Shown: positions 2,836-20,849 of the stretch, piece by piece
How the letters are laid out: each line of letters opens with the position of its first letter
Position numbering within the stretch: the stretch's first letter is position 1
IMG/VR virus record: IMGVR_UViG_3300005338_000040
Location: 1-20,849 of that record
Length of the DNA: 20,849 bases
Strand: one strand, 5' to 3'
From: a virus
Notes under the pieces: model-generated
Told to the model about the DNA's origin: nothing
Database searches by the model: none
The model's input: only the letters and a program-made list of their open reading frames with translations
Translations under genes and position numbers: made by a program

Positions 2836-4217
2836 TGCCTATTAATTTGCTGGCTGATGACACTGAAGCGCCTATCAATTTGCTGGCTGAAGAACCAAGT
2901 AGCCAGTCATTTTATGACTTATCGCCTGAAGATCAAGAAAAAGTCATGGGCCTTGTTAAGCAAAAATTATCCATGCAACACCCCAATATGCCCGAGTGGA
3001 TGCAAGATGTATTGCTGAAAATGACACCAAAAGACAAGTCGCCCATGCTTGAATCAGCAGCGCGTGGCATGACGAACGTGTCAAACTACATACCAGCAGC
3101 CTTTGGTGGCCTATTACAAGGCGCATCCATCCCAATTCGTGGTGTGGCAAGCATGATTCCGGGTGAATTTGCCAAAGGTCTTGCCAATAGCCCTGATTTA
3201 CGTGATTTATTTCCACAAGCTGAAGGAACAGGCCAAAAGTCTGTCCAAGCAGCCGCAGAATTACTAGGCGGTGGCGGTTTATTCGGAAAGCTCATGCAAG
3301 GTGTGAAAGGTGCTGCCGCCTTATCCCGAGTACCTAAGATGCTTCAAAACCCATTAGCTTTGGGTGGTGCTGGGTACATTGCCACCCCCGGAACCCCAAC
3401 TGATAAAGGCTTGGGTGCAGCCGGGGCTCTGGCTCTTGGTGGCGCTGGAAATCTAGCCGGTAAAGCGGCTGGCAAAGTAGGTGAAAAATTACCCGAATTC
3501 ATGCGCGGGTTAACCAGTAAATCAACCCCTGAAGCACTGGTTGAAGCCGTACAAAAACCCCATGACAAGCTTCAAAGTACCGCCGATGAGCTCTATGGAC
3601 AGGTGCGTAGTGCGGTTAAAAAGCGTGGCATTAAGATCCCTATCAAAGACATGCATTTGGATAAGGTAAGAGAAATATTGCCTAAAACACGTGCCAGTGA
3701 GAAGCTTATTGAGCGTGCCAAATCAGGCGATTATGACGCAGTACATGACTTACAAAGCCACCTTTACAAGAAAGGCACCAAAGGCTTGGCATCTGATGAT
3801 ATTGCCTTGGAAAACCAAGGTGAAGAGATATTGGATTTACGAGACAAAATAAACGATGATTTAGAAAGCCACTTATTGAAAGAAGGTCACATTGATGTGG
3901 CCCACGTGCTCAAACAAGGGAAAAAGACGGTTGCTAAGCTTAAAAGTACCTACTTTGCGCCACTGCTTAGAAAAGGCGTTGGCAAGATGGTGCAATCTGA
4001 TTTGCGCTTGGTTCCTGAGAAGCCTGAGAAGTTATTTAGCCAGAATTCAGTGCCTATGAAAGATTTCTTAGCTAAACATCCTGAAGCAGCTAAACATGCT
4101 CAGGGCATCAAAGAAAAAGAAGCCGCATTAAAAGCATTAAAAAATATGTTTGGTATAACTGCTGGGGCAGGCGGATCGACTTATTTATTAAAATCAGCTT
4201 ATGATTTACTTAAATAA
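2835..4217 (+). CDS. Putative ejection protein with Gly/Ala-rich membrane-active segments
   Basis: This encodes 460 residues. It overlaps the previous stop as TAATG and has AGGGGG as its ribosome-binding site. It opens with a duplicated motif, PINLLADD and PINLLAEE. An acidic helical part follows ('YDLSPEDQEKVMGLVKQKL'). A long Gly/Ala/Leu-rich zone (about residues 70-225) contains amphipathic or hydrophobic stretches such as 'AAAELLGGGGLFGKLMQGVK' and 'GAAGALALGGAGNLAGKAAG'. The C-terminal half is Lys-rich and helical, and a short hydrophobic end closes the protein. Such a layout fits injection proteins that insert into or cross the host envelope. No lytic transglycosylase catalytic motif is evident. 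It is the third and last of the block. Confidence 0.65.
   Translation: MPINLLADDTEAPINLLAEEPSSQSFYDLSPEDQEKVMGLVKQKLSMQHPNMPEWMQDVLLKMTPKDKSPMLESAARGMTNVSNYIPAAFGGLLQGASIPIRGVASMIPGEFAKGLANSPDLRDLFPQAEGTGQKSVQAAAELLGGGGLFGKLMQGVKGAAALSRVPKMLQNPLALGGAGYIATPGTPTDKGLGAAGALALGGAGNLAGKAAGKVGEKLPEFMRGLTSKSTPEALVEAVQKPHDKLQSTADELYGQVRSAVKKRGIKIPIKDMHLDKVREILPKTRASEKLIERAKSGDYDAVHDLQSHLYKKGTKGLASDDIALENQGEEILDLRDKINDDLESHLLKEGHIDVAHVLKQGKKTVAKLKSTYFAPLLRKGVGKMVQSDLRLVPEKPEKLFSQNSVPMKDFLAKHPEAAKHAQGIKEKEAALKALKNMFGITAGAGGSTYLLKSAYDLLK
2838..2894 (+). repeat. Duplicated PINLLA(D/E)(D/E) motif at a protein N-terminus
   Basis: Two 24-base units (2838-2861 and 2871-2894), 33 bases apart, encode PINLLADD and PINLLAEE at the start of the 460-aa ejection-type protein. 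They differ at only a few bases. A short repeated linear motif at a virion protein's N-terminus suggests a docking or packaging tag; this is inference. Confidence 0.7.
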
Positions 4218-14123: not shown

Positions 14124-14160
14124 CGTATAAGGCGATAGTATTTATAGTATTCGATGTTAT

Positions 14161-14484
14161 TCAGATTTTAAGCAAACTAACTGGATGTTTTTTTAAATCG
14201 GGATTTTCTTCTTTTAGTAAATGGATATCTTTATAAATACTATTTAAACATTCTTCTTTTGATAAAAAGATTGAATCGACAAATTCTATTTGAATCCAAA
14301 AATTTTCATTTTTACAATTACCAAAATCAGGGTCAAGATGAAACACATAATTATCATTATTCCATAAATTATAGTTAATTGTTATTCTTGCAACCTAAGC
14401 TTCCTTAATCCATATTAACCCATCAATATCCATTCGTTTGATATAAACGGTCTTTCCTAAATATTTTTCAATTAGTCTGTCCAT
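14161..14484 (-). CDS. Hypothetical frame split by an in-frame TAG codon
   Basis: From ATG 14484 the frame reads 29 codons ('MDRLIEKYLGKTVYIKRMDI' and on), meets TAG at 14395-14397, then continues without interruption for 77 codons to a stop at 14161. The second half ('NYNLWNNDNYVFHLDPDFGN', then an acidic helix with 'SKEECLNSIYKDIHLLKEEN') looks like ordinary protein. Its first possible own start, GTG 14346, lacks a ribosome-binding site and would drop 16 plausible residues. The start at 14484 sits just after the upstream gene's stop. Options are a nonsense-mutated gene, readthrough of TAG, a sequencing error, or two unrelated frames. The product family is unknown. It is the last gene of the leftward block. 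Confidence 0.5.
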
Positions 14485-14486
14485 TA

Positions 14487-14708
14487 TTAATCATCTTCCC
14501 ACCTTTTATTGCATTTAAGACACATTGCCGTATTGCAATCAAGGCATCCGCTTGATCGCTCATGCTCACAATAATCATCAATCATGGTTTGGATTTTGTC
14601 TTTTAGTATTGGGTAATATTTATATTCTTTGGCTTCACCCCAATGTCTGATTACAATGTTCAGCTCCAAGAACAATATTTTTAGTTCTTCTTTCGTGAAG
14701 TCATTCAT
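14487..14708 (-). CDS. Small Cys-rich, possibly zinc-binding phage protein
   Basis: This encodes 73 residues. ATG 14708 overlaps the stop of the upstream 28-aa membrane protein as ATGA. The N-terminal ~48 residues are helical ('KEELKILFLELNIVIRHWGE'). The end carries five Cys and a His in 'CEHERSSGCLDCNTAMCLKC', a plausible zinc site with two CxxC pairs. It has no close ribosome-binding site, consistent with coupled translation. The function is unknown. Confidence 0.68.
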   Translation of the reverse strand: MNDFTKEELKILFLELNIVIRHWGEAKEYKYYPILKDKIQTMIDDYCEHERSSGCLDCNTAMCLKCNKRWEDD

Positions 14709-14791
14709 ATTAAAAAAGCCACCATAATGATTATAATAAAAATTATAAGAAAAAATTGTCCTTTTATATCTTCATTATTAAATTCACTCAT
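14705..14791 (-). CDS. 28-aa single-span membrane microprotein
   Basis: ATG 14791 follows the helicase TAG directly. GAAGGA within the last helicase codons, about four bases upstream, serves as a ribosome-binding site. The first 12 residues are polar and acidic ('MSEFNNEDIKGQ'); the remaining 16 are entirely hydrophobic ('FFLIIFIIIIMVAFLI'), enough for one membrane span with the N-terminus probably inside. It ends by ATGA overlap with the next gene. The coupling on both sides argues that it is translated. It lies in the same frame as the helicase, one stop codon apart. Role unknown. Confidence 0.6.
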   Translation of the reverse strand: MSEFNNEDIKGQFFLIIFIIIIMVAFLI

Positions 14792-17191
14792 CTAATCCTT
14801 CCAGTTAAAAGAATCCAGCTTTTCAAATTCATTGCCTGAATGGTCTTGCCATTTACTGATGTCCTCATCATGGCGTCCGTTAGCAATCACCTGAAATGCC
14901 CTGAATTCCTTGTTATTTAACCTGTCCAAATCTATTTCATGAATCTTGCAAGACGCATGAACCAATTTATCGTATTCTTCATTCCAATCATTCATTGCCT
15001 TGACATATCCATGTAAAGATACTCTATAGCATTTGAAGGATTTCATTTCCCGACTGTATGCAATGGTGCTATTAAACACTTCCATCTTGACTATTTGGCA
15101 CCATTTGTCATAGGCATAGCGCAGGCTTACTCTTGGCAATATCGTATTCCAGTGGGTATCCCATGAAATCAAATCACCATTCTCACTAAAGCGTTTCATT
15201 TTATCTTTATGATCAACCCAAATCTTTGTCGGGAATCGAATGTGGCTTTGATTCTCTGCGACCTTCTCAATGGTATCCCCAAGGGTTGATCCATAGTTTT
15301 TAGCAAATCTAGCATAAGAACTTGGTGTGCGAATTCTGTATTGATCTTTGATAAGCCGCAGCTCATTGTTCTCACGCACCAAATACTCAAATATCACCTG
15401 ATTGGTAAAACGGGCTATTTCAAAAAACGTATGAATCACATCCAATTCCCGCTCATCTTCATCAACCATTGGATGGTCAAAATATTTCTCAACCACCTTA
15501 AGACGATTCATGTCTTGCTCAATGCAATCAATTTGAACCGGTGAATGCAGCTCACCGTTTTCAAGAATACTCTTTAAGTAAGCCATATTCTGCAATCGCC
15601 CATAGGCTTGATGAGGATGAACAAAATGCTGCTTAACTACCGTGTGATAAAAGAACCGCACAGCCTTTTCAGTGCTTAACAGGAAGTTTTCTTGGGCTTT
15701 AATGTATTGGGTAGGGTTTGTTTTTGGGTTCAATAGGTAAGTGATATCGAAGCGTGGTGAACCATTTACAATAGATATTCCGTACTGCGTTTCCTTCACA
15801 TCCAGCAAGATTCTATTTTTATTAGAGGCTATCTCTTTAAGGTTTCGATTGGGATCGATAAGCTCTGTGTGACACGCTCTGCATTGACGCGACACAATGT
15901 CATTCTTAACACCACATCCGGGACAATCCTTCCATTCAAACCAGTGATCACATCGTGAGTCATCTTTGGTGCCAATACATCGTCTGGCGGTCACGGTATT
16001 CATCGCATTGCAACTGTAACACTCAATACAGTAATCGGGATTACCTTCACGGTTTTGCAACAGCGCTTTGTTAATCACTGGATTGTCAATGTCACCATGC
16101 CTATCAAGGTTACCGGCATAATCCAAAATAAGACAATCGGTTTTACCATCTGCCAATCGAAGCCCGCGACCCAAGCACTGTATATACAAGACCAAGGACT
16201 CAGTAGGTCTAACAAACACAACAGTATCATAAGTAGGTACATCAACGCCTGTACATAGAACATTCACATTCACCAAATATTTAATTATCCCAAGTCGTGC
16301 CTTGGTTATGTATTCATCACGCAAATGATCGGGCGTATTCCCGGTAATAATGGCAGTCTCATCAGGTGGTAACCATTCAGCACACTCAGAGCAATGCTGA
16401 ATGCTGCTTGCAAAAATAAATGCACCTTTCCTGTCTTTCACAATCTCTACCACTTCCGCCATAATTTTGGCAGTCAAGCGCGGCTTTTTATTGACACACG
16501 CCTCTAAGTCAACTGAGTTAAAGCGCCCCATGGAATTAACCTTTAATTCCTGAAAATCGTATTGAAGCGTCTTTTCGCAATAACCCCAAATAGGGTTGGT
16601 TAAATACCCTTCTTTAATGAGCCAATCAGCAGTAATCGCGCAGACCTCTTCTTGAAAGAATAATTTATCACCGACTATTGTGTGGCCTTTGCCACGGTAG
16701 GGCGTCCCCGTGAGCCCTACGAAACGAAGCTTGTGTCCTTCCTGTTGAGCATACAGTGCATAATGATTAAATATGCGCATGTAGGTCGTATCTTTTTCAT
16801 TAAAGTTGATATTGTGGCATTCATCGACAACAATGAGATTGAATGGTATTTTTGAAAACTTGCCTTTCGCTTTTATGCTGCCCCTTACTGAAAGGGGTGA
16901 GGCAAATATTACTGGCTCTTCAGAATCCTTTTGACCCAAAGCCGCACAATAAATACCAGCATTACCACCTTGTAGTCTATAGGTTTCAGCATTTTGACGA
17001 ATGAGCGTGCTATTCATTGTAAGGCAAAGCGCACGCCAGCCAGCTTTCTCAATCACCATCAGCAATTCAGCTATGATAAGAGACTTACCAGCACCAACGC
17101 TTGCATTAACTAACAATGGCCCTTCAGTTTCTTTTAGGCGTGCTTTGAGCTTATCAAGCACTTCTTTTTGATACGGTCTTAATTTTTTCAT
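14792..17191 (-). CDS. SF2 DNA helicase (DEAD/DEAH, ResIII type) with zinc ribbons
   Basis: This encodes 799 residues. It is an ATP-driven helicase of superfamily 2, most like phage UvsW/ResIII-type enzymes that remodel forks or branched DNA. Motifs are in order: a Q-like 'LRPYQKE' (4-10), Walker A 'ASVGAGKS' (30-37), Walker B 'VVDECHN' (121-127), motif III 'TGTPYRG' (161-167), 'CTGVDVP' (313-319) and motif VI 'QCLGRGLR' (338-345) with the arginine fingers. After the helicase core come Cys clusters (388, 391, 394, 405, 414 and the pairs 423/426 and 437/440), likely zinc ribbons. The last ~300 residues show no recognised domain. The start has only a weak ribosome-binding site. It is the largest gene of the leftward block and ends in TAG, rare in this window. 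Confidence 0.9.
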   Translation of the reverse strand: MKKLRPYQKEVLDKLKARLKETEGPLLVNASVGAGKSLIIAELLMVIEKAGWRALCLTMNSTLIRQNAETYRLQGGNAGIYCAALGQKDSEEPVIFASPLSVRGSIKAKGKFSKIPFNLIVVDECHNINFNEKDTTYMRIFNHYALYAQQEGHKLRFVGLTGTPYRGKGHTIVGDKLFFQEEVCAITADWLIKEGYLTNPIWGYCEKTLQYDFQELKVNSMGRFNSVDLEACVNKKPRLTAKIMAEVVEIVKDRKGAFIFASSIQHCSECAEWLPPDETAIITGNTPDHLRDEYITKARLGIIKYLVNVNVLCTGVDVPTYDTVVFVRPTESLVLYIQCLGRGLRLADGKTDCLILDYAGNLDRHGDIDNPVINKALLQNREGNPDYCIECYSCNAMNTVTARRCIGTKDDSRCDHWFEWKDCPGCGVKNDIVSRQCRACHTELIDPNRNLKEIASNKNRILLDVKETQYGISIVNGSPRFDITYLLNPKTNPTQYIKAQENFLLSTEKAVRFFYHTVVKQHFVHPHQAYGRLQNMAYLKSILENGELHSPVQIDCIEQDMNRLKVVEKYFDHPMVDEDERELDVIHTFFEIARFTNQVIFEYLVRENNELRLIKDQYRIRTPSSYARFAKNYGSTLGDTIEKVAENQSHIRFPTKIWVDHKDKMKRFSENGDLISWDTHWNTILPRVSLRYAYDKWCQIVKMEVFNSTIAYSREMKSFKCYRVSLHGYVKAMNDWNEEYDKLVHASCKIHEIDLDRLNNKEFRAFQVIANGRHDEDISKWQDHSGNEFEKLDSFNWKD

Positions 17192-17301: not shown

Positions 17302-17646
17302 TTATTCGGTTATTGGATAATCAGGTAATGGCATCCAATGGGTCACAGCCACATCATCATTTAATATTTGGGTTGAGTACCAAAGACAGCAATGTGTCCA
17401 TTTGCCATTCTCACGATGACCTGTCATGATTTCTTTTCCACCCATTGGGTTAATCGCAAAATACATTACCTCTTTCCTGTCTTCAGGCAGCCTGTCATCA
17501 ACATCAATCCAGCAATCTTCTATACTCATCGGTAAAATCTCAGTAAAAGTAAAATTACAAAATTCAGGACAAAGCTGATTAGCAAAACCCCACAACTCGT
17601 CCCACTGCTGTTCTTTATTGCAGCTTGGACATCTTTTCATTTTCAT
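17302..17646 (-). CDS. DUF551 domain protein with N-terminal zinc-binding segment
   Basis: This encodes 114 residues. ATG 17646 follows AGGGA at good distance; a second ATG two codons on is possible. Residues 41-110 match the DUF551 pattern: 'CWIDVDDRLPEDRKEVMYFA' near the start and 'DDVAVTHWMPLPDYP' at the end, the domain's usual W-[IV]-x-V-x-x-R-L-P opening and T-H-W-x-P-L-P close. Ahead of it is a Cys-rich part with 'CPSC', 'CPEFC', probably a zinc ribbon. DUF551 proteins are very common in phage early regions; their function is not established. The gene overlaps its upstream neighbour by 32 bases. Confidence 0.85.
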   Translation of the reverse strand: MKMKRCPSCNKEQQWDELWGFANQLCPEFCNFTFTEILPMSIEDCWIDVDDRLPEDRKEVMYFAINPMGGKEIMTGHRENGKWTHCCLWYSTQILNDDVAVTHWMPLPDYPITE

Positions 17647-17875
17647 TGGTTATCCCTAACAAAGTATCTTTATTTTTGTATCGTAGGATTTCCAAAAGGA
17701 GTCGTTTTAAATTCTTTTCAAGCGCATCAAGCCCATATTCGGTAAGAATTATTTTTTGACTATATAAGGCCACACGTGCCAATCCATCATGACATTGCTG
17801 ATTGACCGTGATAACCGTTAAATTGTCTTGATTTTCTTCTATTTTGAATATGGACTCTGTAAGTAGCTCTATCAT
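17615..17875 (-). CDS. Hypothetical early-region protein
   Basis: This encodes 86 residues. ATG 17875 overlaps the upstream stop as ATGA, with AGGTG inside the upstream gene's end. The first half is predicted beta ('QDNLTVITVNQQCHDGLARV'); the second is an amphipathic helix with 'EYGLDALEKNLKRLLLEILR'. No motif is recognised and no membrane segment is visible. It overlaps the DUF551 gene by 32 bases. Confidence 0.68.
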   Translation of the reverse strand: MIELLTESIFKIEENQDNLTVITVNQQCHDGLARVALYSQKIILTEYGLDALEKNLKRLLLEILRYKNKDTLLGITNENEKMSKLQ

Positions 17876-18186
17876 TCAAAATTCACCTGTTTCATCCCTT
17901 CCATATTGCGCTTCATCCCATCCAACACCTTTTGATAGGTATCTATAACAATATGCATTATCTCAGACGCACTCACCTGCTTATGACCTACCTGAAGGTA
18001 GTCATCAATGGCTTTAATGGCGGCGTTAACCATATTAAATAAACTTAATTCCATGAAGTCATGAATGCCCCCACGTTTGGCCGTATTAAACTTTTCAAGG
18101 AAGGTTAATAGAAACTGATGGGCATCAATAACTTTCTCATGAGCTGCAATTTCACGGCCCTCATAGCGGTTTAATTCAGACATCAT
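17872..18186 (-). CDS. Hypothetical helical early-region protein
   Basis: This encodes 104 residues, starting at ATG 18186 (or the adjacent ATG 18183, which is one codon shorter and sits further from the preceding run of G). It is almost wholly helical, with 'HEKVIDAHQFLLTFLEKFNT', 'FNMVNAAIKAIDDYLQVG' and 'IVIDTYQKVLDGMKRNMEGM'. It overlaps the end of the alpha-CTD-like gene and is probably translated with it. No family is recognised; a helical partner of the coiled-coil neighbour is possible but speculative. Confidence 0.65.
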   Translation of the reverse strand: MMSELNRYEGREIAAHEKVIDAHQFLLTFLEKFNTAKRGGIHDFMELSLFNMVNAAIKAIDDYLQVGHKQVSASEIMHIVIDTYQKVLDGMKRNMEGMKQVNFE

Positions 18187-18709
18187 CCCCCCTAAATGCT
18201 AGTCCTTTCTTTTTTAGTGCTTCCGTAATTTCAGAAAATGATTTTTTCCCAAGATTAGGAATTTTGTATAATGTATGTGCTTTTATTTTCAACAAATCTT
18301 TCATGTAAATAAAATTATCGGCATTCAAGATCCGTATGGTTCTTACGGTTAAATCTAAATATTCTGAAATTAAAGCATGATCGATACATTCAACTTGTTC
18401 AGGTTGCTTAGGCGGCGTATCAGTTAGAAAAAAGTTTTCAATGCGATAAATAAATTCATTGATTTGAATCGTAATGCCGATGAGCTCTTCTTGGCGATTG
18501 ACTATATCTTCCATCAAGCTTACAAGCGTTTTACGCTGCCCGCGCACTTCATCATAAGCCCGCGCTAAATCCGCCTTGTATTTGCGCAAAAGCTCTAATT
18601 CACCTTTGATGGCCTCATCGTATTGGCGATTTAAGTTTTCTTCATAGCGATGAAATATAAGCTCGATATGTTCTTTTTGTTCGGGGGTGAGTGGATCGTT
18701 AGTGGACAC
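18176..18709 (-). CDS. Coiled-coil protein with RNA polymerase alpha-CTD-like domain
   Basis: This encodes 177 residues from GTG 18709, chosen because AAGGGGG lies five bases upstream; TTG 18754 or ATG 18727 would add residues without such a site. Residues 10-95 are a long charged coiled coil ('EENLNRQYDEAIKGELELLR' and on). A short linker (95-113) leads to residues 115-173, which read as the bacterial RpoA C-terminal domain: 'YLDLTVRTIRILNADNFIYM', 'KDLL', then 'IPNLGKKSFSEITEALKKKG'. Arg123, Gly154, Lys156, Ser157 and Glu160 align with E. coli alpha R265, G296, K298, S299 and E302, the DNA-contact set; N268 is Arg here and C269 is Ile. The RpoA N-terminal assembly domain is absent. It may bind AT-rich DNA or mimic alpha at promoters; this is inference. 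Confidence 0.8.
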   Translation of the reverse strand: MSTNDPLTPEQKEHIELIFHRYEENLNRQYDEAIKGELELLRKYKADLARAYDEVRGQRKTLVSLMEDIVNRQEELIGITIQINEFIYRIENFFLTDTPPKQPEQVECIDHALISEYLDLTVRTIRILNADNFIYMKDLLKIKAHTLYKIPNLGKKSFSEITEALKKKGLAFRGDDV

Positions 18710-19121
18710 TTTTGCCCCCTTTTTCATCCATTTGCTTTTTAATGATAGCAACAATGGCTTCCTTTACTTCGTCAGGCAAATCTTTCATTTCCAGTGTCAC
18801 AGCTTCTTTTTGCTCTTGAACAAAGAAGGGGTTCATATCCAGTTTTACTGAATCCCATCCTTTTTCGATGGCTTCACTGGTTTGGAAAAAAGGATGATGC
18901 AAATCAAAGCCAAAGCGAAAAGCATGGCTTGCCATGTGCATTGCATGATTAGCACCCATCCATATGGCTCCTAAACGGTGGAGTGCCATGTAACGCTCAA
19001 ATACATCCCCTTTTCTATCTTCAAGAACCTCAACTTCTTCAGTCATGTCCTTCATTAAATCAAGTACCTTTTTGATGAGTCCCCTGATATTTTTCTCATC
19101 AATCTTCTGTATTTCTTTCAT
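18699..19121 (-). CDS. Hypothetical early-region protein
   Basis: This encodes 140 residues. ATG 19121 follows AAGGA inside the end of the upstream gene. The N-terminus is a charged helix ('IRGLIKKVLDLMKDMTEEVE'), the middle a Met/His/Phe-rich part ('GANHAMHMASHAFRFGFDLH', about residues 57-76). A helix of 'DLPDEVKEAIVAIIKKQMDE' ends it. The His cluster could bind metal, but no known motif is matched. It overlaps the start of the alpha-CTD-like gene by 11 bases, so the two are probably translated together. Confidence 0.68.
   Translation of the reverse strand: MKEIQKIDEKNIRGLIKKVLDLMKDMTEEVEVLEDRKGDVFERYMALHRLGAIWMGANHAMHMASHAFRFGFDLHHPFFQTSEAIEKGWDSVKLDMNPFFVQEQKEAVTLEMKDLPDEVKEAIVAIIKKQMDEKGGKSVH
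18715..18721 (-). promoter_or_regulatory. Ribosome-binding site deciding the GTG start of the alpha-CTD-like gene
   Basis: AAGGGGG on the - strand, five bases before GTG 18709, lies inside the end of the upstream gene. Neither alternative start (18727, 18754) has a comparable site. Confidence 0.6.
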
Positions 19122-19290
19122 TCATTTCATCCTTTCTTTTATTTAAATAAACAATCATGCATTCCATGCCACAAAAATCTAAGGGTGGGAATGATAAAAT
19201 ATTATCCACAAAATTCACTTCAAAATGACCTATATACGATCCTGTTAAATTCTTATCGCATTGATCGCAATGATGGGTCGTTTTTCTCAT
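19099..19290 (-). CDS. Small zinc-finger-like protein
   Basis: This encodes 63 residues from ATG 19290, which overlaps the nuclease stop as ATGA and has AAGG about ten bases upstream; an in-frame ATG at 19299 would sit only one base from that site. The pattern H-H-C-x2-C ('THHCDQCDKNL') near the start and C-x3-C ('FCGMEC') about 35 residues later suggests a single zinc-binding fold. The end is highly charged. It may bind nucleic acid or a partner protein. No closer family is recognised. Confidence 0.66.
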   Translation of the reverse strand: MRKTTHHCDQCDKNLTGSYIGHFEVNFVDNILSFPPLDFCGMECMIVYLNKRKDEMNERNTED

Positions 19291-19946
19291 TTGTGGCATA
19301 CCTTGTTAAATTTACACATCTTGCATTGATACCAAAGCGGCGAACCATTAATGCGCGGGGGCGCCACATTTGCTTGTGTAATCATTAGAGCCTTGCATTC
19401 CAAATTGACATAAAATGCGGGGTCAAAAGTCACTAATTCATCGGAAATCTCACTATTATCCTTATTTAGTACAAGTATATATGTACTATATATGCGACTC
19501 ATCCCCATATAGGACTGAATTTGCGCATAATATTGAGGATTCCAAACCTTAACCCCTTTCTTAACAAATATCTTAAAACTGGCATCTTTAGCGGTTTTAA
19601 TCTCAATGATTGCCTTAAATACACCACCACGACCAATCCAAACCGAATCAACATGCCCCTTAAATTGCGGCACCATCTCAGACGACAACGTGCGTTGTGG
19701 CAACACGCCAAGCGTAATACCTGCATCATCAAGCCATTCCATAACAAGACGCTCAAGCCATTTACCAATAGCCCATGTACGCCGTGTTTTAGTGGGTACT
19801 TTCTCAGCCTTTGTACCCTTAAATTCATACCAAATTTGTCTTAAACAATCGGAGCCAATGCTACTGGCCCCGATATAATCACGCGTATCATTTGAATCAC
19901 GCGCCTGATACTTTTCAATGCGCTTGGTTAATATATCTCTGGCCAT
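19287..19946 (-). CDS. PD-(D/E)XK exonuclease, Cas4/RecB-like with Fe-S cysteines
   Basis: This encodes 219 residues, with ATG 19946 after AGGA. It is probably a DNA exonuclease that processes ends during replication or recombination. The nuclease core shows 'GHVDSVW' (His98, Asp100), 'IIEIKTAK' (Glu115, Lys117) and 'QYYAQIQSYM' with Gln142 and Tyr146, the RecB-family QhxxY motif. One cysteine near the start (Cys34 in 'SDCLRQIWYEF') and three at the end (Cys208, 211 and 217) are placed as in Cas4 and AddB-type nucleases that hold a 4Fe-4S cluster. No CRISPR array or other cas gene is nearby, so it belongs to the phage replication set, next to the SSB and recombinase-like ATPase. Confidence 0.87.
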   Translation of the reverse strand: MARDILTKRIEKYQARDSNDTRDYIGASSIGSDCLRQIWYEFKGTKAEKVPTKTRRTWAIGKWLERLVMEWLDDAGITLGVLPQRTLSSEMVPQFKGHVDSVWIGRGGVFKAIIEIKTAKDASFKIFVKKGVKVWNPQYYAQIQSYMGMSRIYSTYILVLNKDNSEISDELVTFDPAFYVNLECKALMITQANVAPPRINGSPLWYQCKMCKFNKVCHK

Positions 19947-19965: not shown

Positions 19966-20565
19966 TTAAAATGGCACATCGTCCAAAAGGTCTTGGGTTG
20001 GTGCTGCTGCTTGATTTCGGCTAAAAGCACTGTCAATAGGCTCACGTCCACCACTGGCATAAGTGGCTAGAGCAACGTGAGTTGTGGCAGGAAGCCCGTG
20101 ACCTGTTTCGCATTTAAATCCCTTAGAGTCATGAATCTCAGCCACCCAATTGTATTGGCGCCCCTGATCGTTTGGTTCAGTCTCACGAATCTTAATTCCC
20201 GCAGCTTTACCCACAAAAACCGCCAAATCTTGGTCTGTAGGCTCGCCGGCATGCTTAGGCTTTGTGTTGTATAGCTGATAAATTAATTTGAGCATATTGA
20301 GCGCTCTATGGCGTGCCTTGGCTGGCTCTTTAGCCATGGGGTCGCCATACACCTTAAGCTTTTGCTCAACCTTGGAGCCTTTAAAGTCCCCATCGGTTAA
20401 AAGCCAGCTTATGGATAGATACTTATTGCCATTAAATTCGGCATTTTTGAAGGACTCAACGCGAGCTAGCGCCATTGTGCCGTCTGGTATTTGTGTAAAA
20501 GACTTTGCAAATGCATCTTCAGCATTGCCCGTAACTTCACCTATTTCAGATTCCCAAAAACTCAT
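19966..20565 (-). CDS. Single-strand DNA-binding protein, DUF669-like
   Basis: This encodes 199 residues. Its GAGGA ribosome-binding site lies in the last codons of the ATPase gene. The N-terminal region has 'IPDGTMALARVESFKNAEFN' followed by 'YLSISWLLTDGDFKGSKVEQ', the pattern of DUF669-type phage proteins with an OB-like fold. The end is a Gln/Ala linker and the acidic tip 'DLLDDVPF', closely resembling the D-D-x-P-F tail by which bacterial SSBs recruit partner enzymes. It probably coats single strands during replication and recombination and docks the nuclease, helicase or host proteins. Neighbours on both sides are recombination genes. Confidence 0.83.
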   Translation of the reverse strand: MSFWESEIGEVTGNAEDAFAKSFTQIPDGTMALARVESFKNAEFNGNKYLSISWLLTDGDFKGSKVEQKLKVYGDPMAKEPAKARHRALNMLKLIYQLYNTKPKHAGEPTDQDLAVFVGKAAGIKIRETEPNDQGRQYNWVAEIHDSKGFKCETGHGLPATTHVALATYASGGREPIDSAFSRNQAAAPTQDLLDDVPF

Positions 20566-20568
20566 TAT

Positions 20569-20849
20569 TTATTCCTCATCATTAAAGTAATTTTCAACTG
20601 CACCTTTTACCGTCAACAAATCGTTGGGTATAAGGAACTCTTCAAACATTCCCATTGGGGACTTGGCCAAAAACTCACCATCGTATTGGGTTTGAAACAA
20701 ATACTCGCCATCCACCACACGTGAATGCAGCACTGTTGTAAACAAGCCCTCAATGGTTATCTTCTCATCTAACATCTTGCCAATGGTTTTGCATTTGGAA
20801 CGCCCTGTGGAGTCCACATCACTATGCGCCAAGATGAAATTGGTAAGTG
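20569..20849 (-). CDS. P-loop ATPase, Sak4/RecA-like (3' part, gene continues past the window)
   Basis: The frame is open to the right edge, so the start and the Walker motifs are outside the window. The visible 93 or so residues read 'LTNFILAHSDVDSTGRSKCK', then 'TIGKMLDEKITIEGLFTTVL', 'LFQTQYDGEFLAKSPMGMFE' and an acidic end. This is the C-terminal part I associate with phage AAA/Sak4-type ATPases, single-strand annealing or RecA-like recombinases that lie beside an SSB. The adjacent SSB gene supports this. Without the P-loop the assignment rests on C-terminal resemblance and context. Confidence 0.7.
   Translation of the reverse strand, partial: LTNFILAHSDVDSTGRSKCKTIGKMLDEKITIEGLFTTVLHSRVVDGEYLFQTQYDGEFLAKSPMGMFEEFLIPNDLLTVKGAVENYFNDEE

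Follow-up and report, generated by a model that had tools for sequence, protein, structure and literature searches.

A phage protein joining a long helical arm to an RNA polymerase alpha-CTD-like domain that is exchanged between close relatives

The window, by which we mean the whole 20,849-base stretch analysed here, is a linear contig from IMG/VR. The minus strand of positions 18176-18709 encodes a protein of 177 residues plus stop (P0001), with a GTG start at 18709 and, 5 nt upstream of it, a Shine-Dalgarno-like GGGGG (18715-18719, minus strand; read from the sequence and matching at consensus level only). The initial annotation had placed an open reading frame here, and the ORF list and a match to PF03118 confirm that it is real. 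Residues 9-95 (18425-18685, minus strand) form a long amphipathic helix, a probable coiled-coil or oligomerising arm judging from the AlphaFold model, the hydrophobic periodicity, and a CTD-less homologue in a relative, L009. Residues 116-166 (18212-18364, minus strand) form an alpha-CTD with two helix-hairpin-helix (HhH) motifs, assigned by PF03118 and Foldseek. Within it, the R123 codon (18341-18343, minus strand) aligns with that of R265 in Escherichia coli alpha, the key UP-element contact. The gene overlaps both of its neighbours, indicating an operon-like arrangement. Its coding region is conserved at 100% in L002 and is also conserved in L003. Comparison with L003 indicates purifying selection on the arm (dN 0.013, dS 0.37; 17 synonymous and 2 nonsynonymous codon changes). 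No family for the protein was found in PHROGs, and no defence match in PADLOC.

The overlapping downstream gene (17872-18186, minus strand; 104 aa) is conserved, being 60-65% identical in 10 relatives, while the upstream gene that overlaps the GTG start (18699-19121, minus strand; 140 aa) was defined from the ORF list and from relatives. In L003 (2610-2676), an in-frame stop lies near the start of this upstream gene, which there probably begins at a downstream ATG to give 118 aa. Further upstream on the same strand are genes for a Cas4-domain exonuclease (19287-19946; phrog_1990, E=1.6e-53), a single-strand DNA-binding protein (SSB; 19966-20565; phrog_9002, E=1e-14), and a Sak4-like ssDNA annealing protein (20569-20847; phrog_2872, E=4.9e-30) that is cut by the window end and complete in a related record, G001. 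On the other side lie a DUF551 protein of the same operon (17302-17646; E=1.1e-10) and a DNA helicase (14792-17191, minus strand; phrog_16, E=6.6e-81; ResIII and Helicase_C). L002 carries a 173-aa HNH-type endonuclease-like ORF (2954-3475) between its 139-aa gene and its Sak4-like gene, which is absent from that place in L003. Further genes in G001 encode a terminase small subunit, a portal, a scaffold, and head proteins. No integrase was found in nine records, some of which may be fragments, in a search whose positive controls worked. Among the classified genes of the window and G001 no phage RNA polymerase gene was recognised, the PF00940 search having been run without a positive control. 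The closest relative in the genome collection lies within a Gammaproteobacteria bacterium assembly.

The C-terminal part of P0001 had been read as an alpha-CTD lacking the RpoA N-terminal domain (NTD), and both halves of that description hold. Pfam RNA_pol_A_CTD (PF03118) matches residues 116-166 with 44.1 bits against a cut-off of 23.8 (E=1.7e-11), and a six-frame search of the whole 20,849-base record with the same profile returned this gene as its single match (E=1.4e-13). Against PDB sequences, P0001 gave 44 distinct matches at E<=0.1 (best E=5.9e-9), all of them RNA polymerase alpha as far as they are named. The NCBIfam rpoA models match the CTD end only, scoring 43.6 bits against a cut-off of 227.8, so the RpoA NTD is missing.

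A structural model of P0001, built with an alignment of viral alpha-CTDs, has a mean pLDDT of 91.6, rising to about 95 over the alpha-CTD, whose helices span residues 114-117, 122-130, 136-140, 144-147, and 155-167. The predicted domain has the two-HhH fold and overlays closely on solved alpha-CTDs, with a Foldseek TMt of 0.91 (rmsd 1.2 A) to 1z3e_B and of 0.88 (rmsd 0.9) to 8y5t_A2. The best 50 PDB matches all contain RNA polymerase alpha, either as the chain itself or within a complex, the Spx complexes 1z3e and 3gfk included. Neither of the computational outcomes named beforehand as refuting the initial annotation, a missing profile match or a fold without HhH motifs, was thus observed. Residues 9-95 are modelled as one unbroken helix of 87 residues with pLDDT mostly 92-98, joined to the domain by a weaker linker (block mean pLDDT 62-70 around residues 91-110). 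Hydrophobic residues in the arm recur with a period of 3.6, as in an amphipathic helix (p=0.0004), and only marginally with the 3.5 of a canonical heptad (p=0.07). The coiled coil of about 85 residues initially proposed therefore stands as a long uninterrupted helix, with its heptad character marginal; the arm is probably a coiled coil, and "long helical arm, probably coiled coil" is the safer wording.

Compared with the CTD of E. coli RpoA (residues ~250-329), P0001 has the same fold and both HhH motifs, with 42% identity over the domain. It differs in having no NTD, and by architecture is not an RNA polymerase subunit. The rpsD-rpoA-rplQ ribosomal-protein operon context of RpoA is also absent, the neighbours of P0001 being phage recombination genes. 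Numbered as in E. coli alpha via the alignment, P0001 keeps R265, N294, G296, K298, S299, and E302, and differs from E. coli in N268R and C269I, as the initial annotation had noted for all of these but N294. Five of the seven UP-element contacts (R265, N268, C269, G296, K298, S299, and E302) are thus kept. The equivalent domain of L003 keeps R265, N294, G296, K298, and S299, with N268K, C269A, and E302A. Position 268 is basic in both versions (Arg in the window, Lys in L003) and in none of 28 gammaproteobacterial-type RpoA sequences, all 28 of which have Asn; across viral alpha-CTDs it is occupied by Asn (35), His (13), Arg (6), or Lys (3). Among 64 distinct viral alpha-CTDs, R265 is present in all 61 that reach that position and E302 in 59 of 64; R265 lay outside the search pattern, though confirmation by tblastn against the window domain introduces a mild bias for such non-pattern residues. 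The pattern covered residues 294-299, so viral invariance there is partly circular.

The roles of these contact residues are established for E. coli alpha, where activators such as CRP touch the 287 determinant. In P0001 this determinant is lost (T285K, E286A, V287H, and E288T), and the sigma-facing 261 determinant is kept only in part (D258E, D259Y, and E261D). E. coli-style contacts with activators or sigma are consequently doubtful, which weakens an earlier suggestion that the protein recruits activators. With the DNA face mostly kept and the activator face lost, the simplest function to propose is direct DNA binding, and we infer it to be the best reading of the domain from its residues. 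In phage T4, the enzymes for ADP-ribosylation of alpha R265 are Alt/ModA. The likeness to the present case lies in phage interference at the DNA-binding face of the alpha-CTD, but Alt/ModA modify host alpha, whereas the window phage carries an alpha-CTD of its own. R265 acts in DNA binding, and its modification is a case of phage interference at the alpha-CTD (PMC2988020).

Lying in a viral record, with an alpha-CTD and without an RpoA NTD, P0001 is a phage-encoded non-RpoA alpha-CTD protein, and it has many counterparts. An alpha-CTD alignment used to scan IMG/VR matched 78 loci, from each of which the ORF was extracted. These ORFs encode 83-304 aa; of the 76 whose layout was tallied, 52 have the CTD at the C-terminus, 9 have it at the N-terminus, and 15 have it in some other or an undecided position. 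An RpoA NTD profile matched none of the 78, while finding the positive control, E. coli RpoA. Ten non-RpoA alpha-CTD proteins scanned with Pfam all exceeded the PF03118 cut-off, with scores of up to 80 bits, as did all 13 viral records searched whole. The viral domains are fused to many unrelated parts, several of which resemble sigma-70 region 4 or helix-turn-helix (HTH) elements. Viral contigs L069, L070, L095, L101, and L054 each combine a sigma-70 region 4 or HTH-like part with an alpha-CTD, and these fusions are possible phage transcription factors uniting two promoter-reading modules. In the L032 group and in L103, what appears to be one type of small phage domain (LLDHFAIEAMK and LRDYFAAKAMQ) is joined to the alpha-CTD, on opposite sides in the different phages. 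By comparison, in 114 bacterial genomes from the class of a genome with a related helicase, the match was almost always a single RpoA-sized ORF; in those bacteria, therefore, free alpha-CTD proteins seldom occur, and phage records contain them repeatedly.

Isolated phages also encode such proteins. Bacillus phage vB_BmeM-Goe8 c00050 (L148, 1959-2591) contains an alpha-CTD scoring 78.1 bits and is annotated "RNA polymerase subunit alpha". It is the fifth annotated gene, at most 2.6 kb from the left genome end, amid small unknown genes that may serve host takeover. Ruegeria phage vB_RpoS-V16 gp23 has an alpha-CTD of 41.4 bits in N-terminal position. Both resemble P0001 in being non-RpoA alpha-CTD proteins, but their fused parts are unrelated to its arm. 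UniProt contains several phage proteins named after the alpha-CTD, of sizes without room for most of the RpoA NTD; these share the module and differ in the fused parts. An alpha-CTD protein is listed in an Erythrobacter phage, by annotation only (PMC9127768). Searches of the collections of phage and plasmid records mainly recovered host rpoA, and these matches were rejected, among them MT839537, a bacterial rpoA-rplQ contig end, and Acinetobacter and Salmonella "phage" records that carry rpoA genes. In a phylogenetic tree of alpha-CTDs, whose small number of columns precludes a finer placement of the window and L003 domains, most viral domains, these two included, fall outside the supported RpoA clade (99/96). 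The window domain was therefore not recently copied from any of the host genes sampled.

Comparison with G001 (IMGVR 3300020121_000064), which contains L003, revealed how the domain varies among near-identical viruses. Over its whole length, and also in the tail gene, G001 shares 95.6-96.3% identity with the window, with the exception of two stretches. One of these (18178-18398, minus strand) covers the alpha-CTD and is an exact in-frame replacement: the arm of the L003 protein is 97% identical, after which the frame runs on into a different alpha-CTD-like domain, which scores 29.5 bits against PF03118 (E=6.3e-7) and is about 34% identical to that of the window. A model of the L003 protein folded without an alignment is of low confidence (pLDDT 66.3). 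The other stretch (14128-14788) holds small ORFs at 14161-14346 and 14487-14708 and is a second variable cassette site, adjoining the helicase. Elsewhere, substitution rates between the window and G001 are low (dS 0.10-0.37, dN 0.002-0.015), so substitution cannot yield the difference in the CTD, while recombination in the conserved flanks can. When close relatives of the replacing CTD were sought as a possible donor, its own record was the sole match.

The arm also occurs without the head. At the corresponding position, upstream of the 104-aa gene, L009 (whose helicase is 70% identical) encodes a protein of 102 aa that is homologous to the arm (33% identity, E=2e-12) and has no CTD. In other, more distant helicase-bearing relatives, some with incomplete records, neither arm nor CTD was found, and the alpha-CTD is absent from 16 of the 17 records of helicase-bearing relatives searched, several of which are fragments. 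A suggested search of phage genomes for the arm-plus-CTD layout met with divided success: the arm matched only the two known relatives, and the scans run did not trace it beyond its own phage group; the CTD joined to other parts proved widespread. Among relatives, the interval between the exonuclease and the 104-aa gene contains differing small genes, as is typical of an accessory slot. The clean exchange in a near-identical virus makes the head look like a plug-in DNA-binding module, apparently passed between close relatives by recombination. The arm without a head may be the earlier state, with the head gained later.

We tentatively propose, from sequence and structural modelling, that P0001 is an accessory early protein of a podovirus-like phage that self-associates and binds AT-rich promoter DNA for host takeover. 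The long arm would probably mediate self-association, multimerisation being plausible from the model, and the C-terminal module would bind double-stranded DNA at AT-rich, UP-element-like minor grooves through the face used by RNA polymerase alpha. Two or more linked heads would, through multivalency, have a higher affinity for promoter regions, and could thereby compete with or replace the host alpha-CTD, shifting host RNA polymerase from host to phage transcription. Such a role in transcription is favoured by the early-type accessory slot, the sigma-like fusions in other viruses, and, as weak support, the lack of a recognised phage polymerase. Against it, the surrounding operon appears devoted to recombination and replication and not to transcription.

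That operon is the starting point of the main rival, in which the alpha-CTD acts as an HhH DNA clamp and the arm docks the neighbouring exonuclease, SSB, Sak4-like protein, or helicase onto DNA during recombination or replication. Beside other viral alpha-CTD genes, too, the commonest known families are RecE-like exonucleases, helicases, and HNH endonucleases, in a count that has no control set. Together with the operon this keeps the tethering model alive, but the neighbours are conserved in relatives without the alpha-CTD protein and so do not need it, and parts resembling sigma-70 region 4 are fused to some of the viral domains; we regard tethering as rather unlikely. The head might instead act through proteins, mimicking the host alpha-CTD and so titrating activators, sigma, Spx-like factors, or RNA polymerase. 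Its fold is that seen in the Spx complexes and acidic residues are kept at 258 and 261, yet the loss of the 287 determinant and of D259, and the variation of partner-contact positions across viral domains in which R265 does not vary, make a protein decoy distinctly improbable. The patchy distribution of the domain among helicase-bearing relatives would also suit a functionless fragment of host rpoA captured by chance. This we consider very improbable, given that both lineages have preserved the reading frame, purifying selection acts on the arm, the swap retains an in-frame alpha-CTD, the DNA-contact residues are kept, and the window domain lies outside the RpoA clade. Direct action on promoter DNA in host takeover accordingly remains our tentative preference.

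In bacterial RNA polymerase, it is the alpha-CTD that recognises UP elements in promoters and is contacted by many activators, and its disabling by phages is known. Phage alpha-CTD proteins are already named in databases, and no experimental study characterising one was found in a search of open-licence papers. The present analysis adds the arm-plus-CTD layout, a clean swap of heads in two nearly identical phages, and an arm homologue without a head; it also shows that alpha-CTD proteins occur in phages in large numbers, have no RpoA NTD, and retain R265. It is possible, though doubtful, that the alpha-CTD is more generally an exchangeable DNA-targeting head that phages accrete onto unrelated early proteins and swap as a unit; swapping between close relatives would then suggest that selection favours change in its specificity for DNA or for partners, linked to host promoter range or to evasion. 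Widespread, polymerase-free, joined to many partners, and exchanged in blocks, these domains point to an unstudied class of phage proteins, one whose action could be probed using a small protein, a DNA-binding assay, and a single point mutant (R123A). If this wider reading is correct, the module would be a phage counterpart of host alpha, helping to choose the promoters used in infection.
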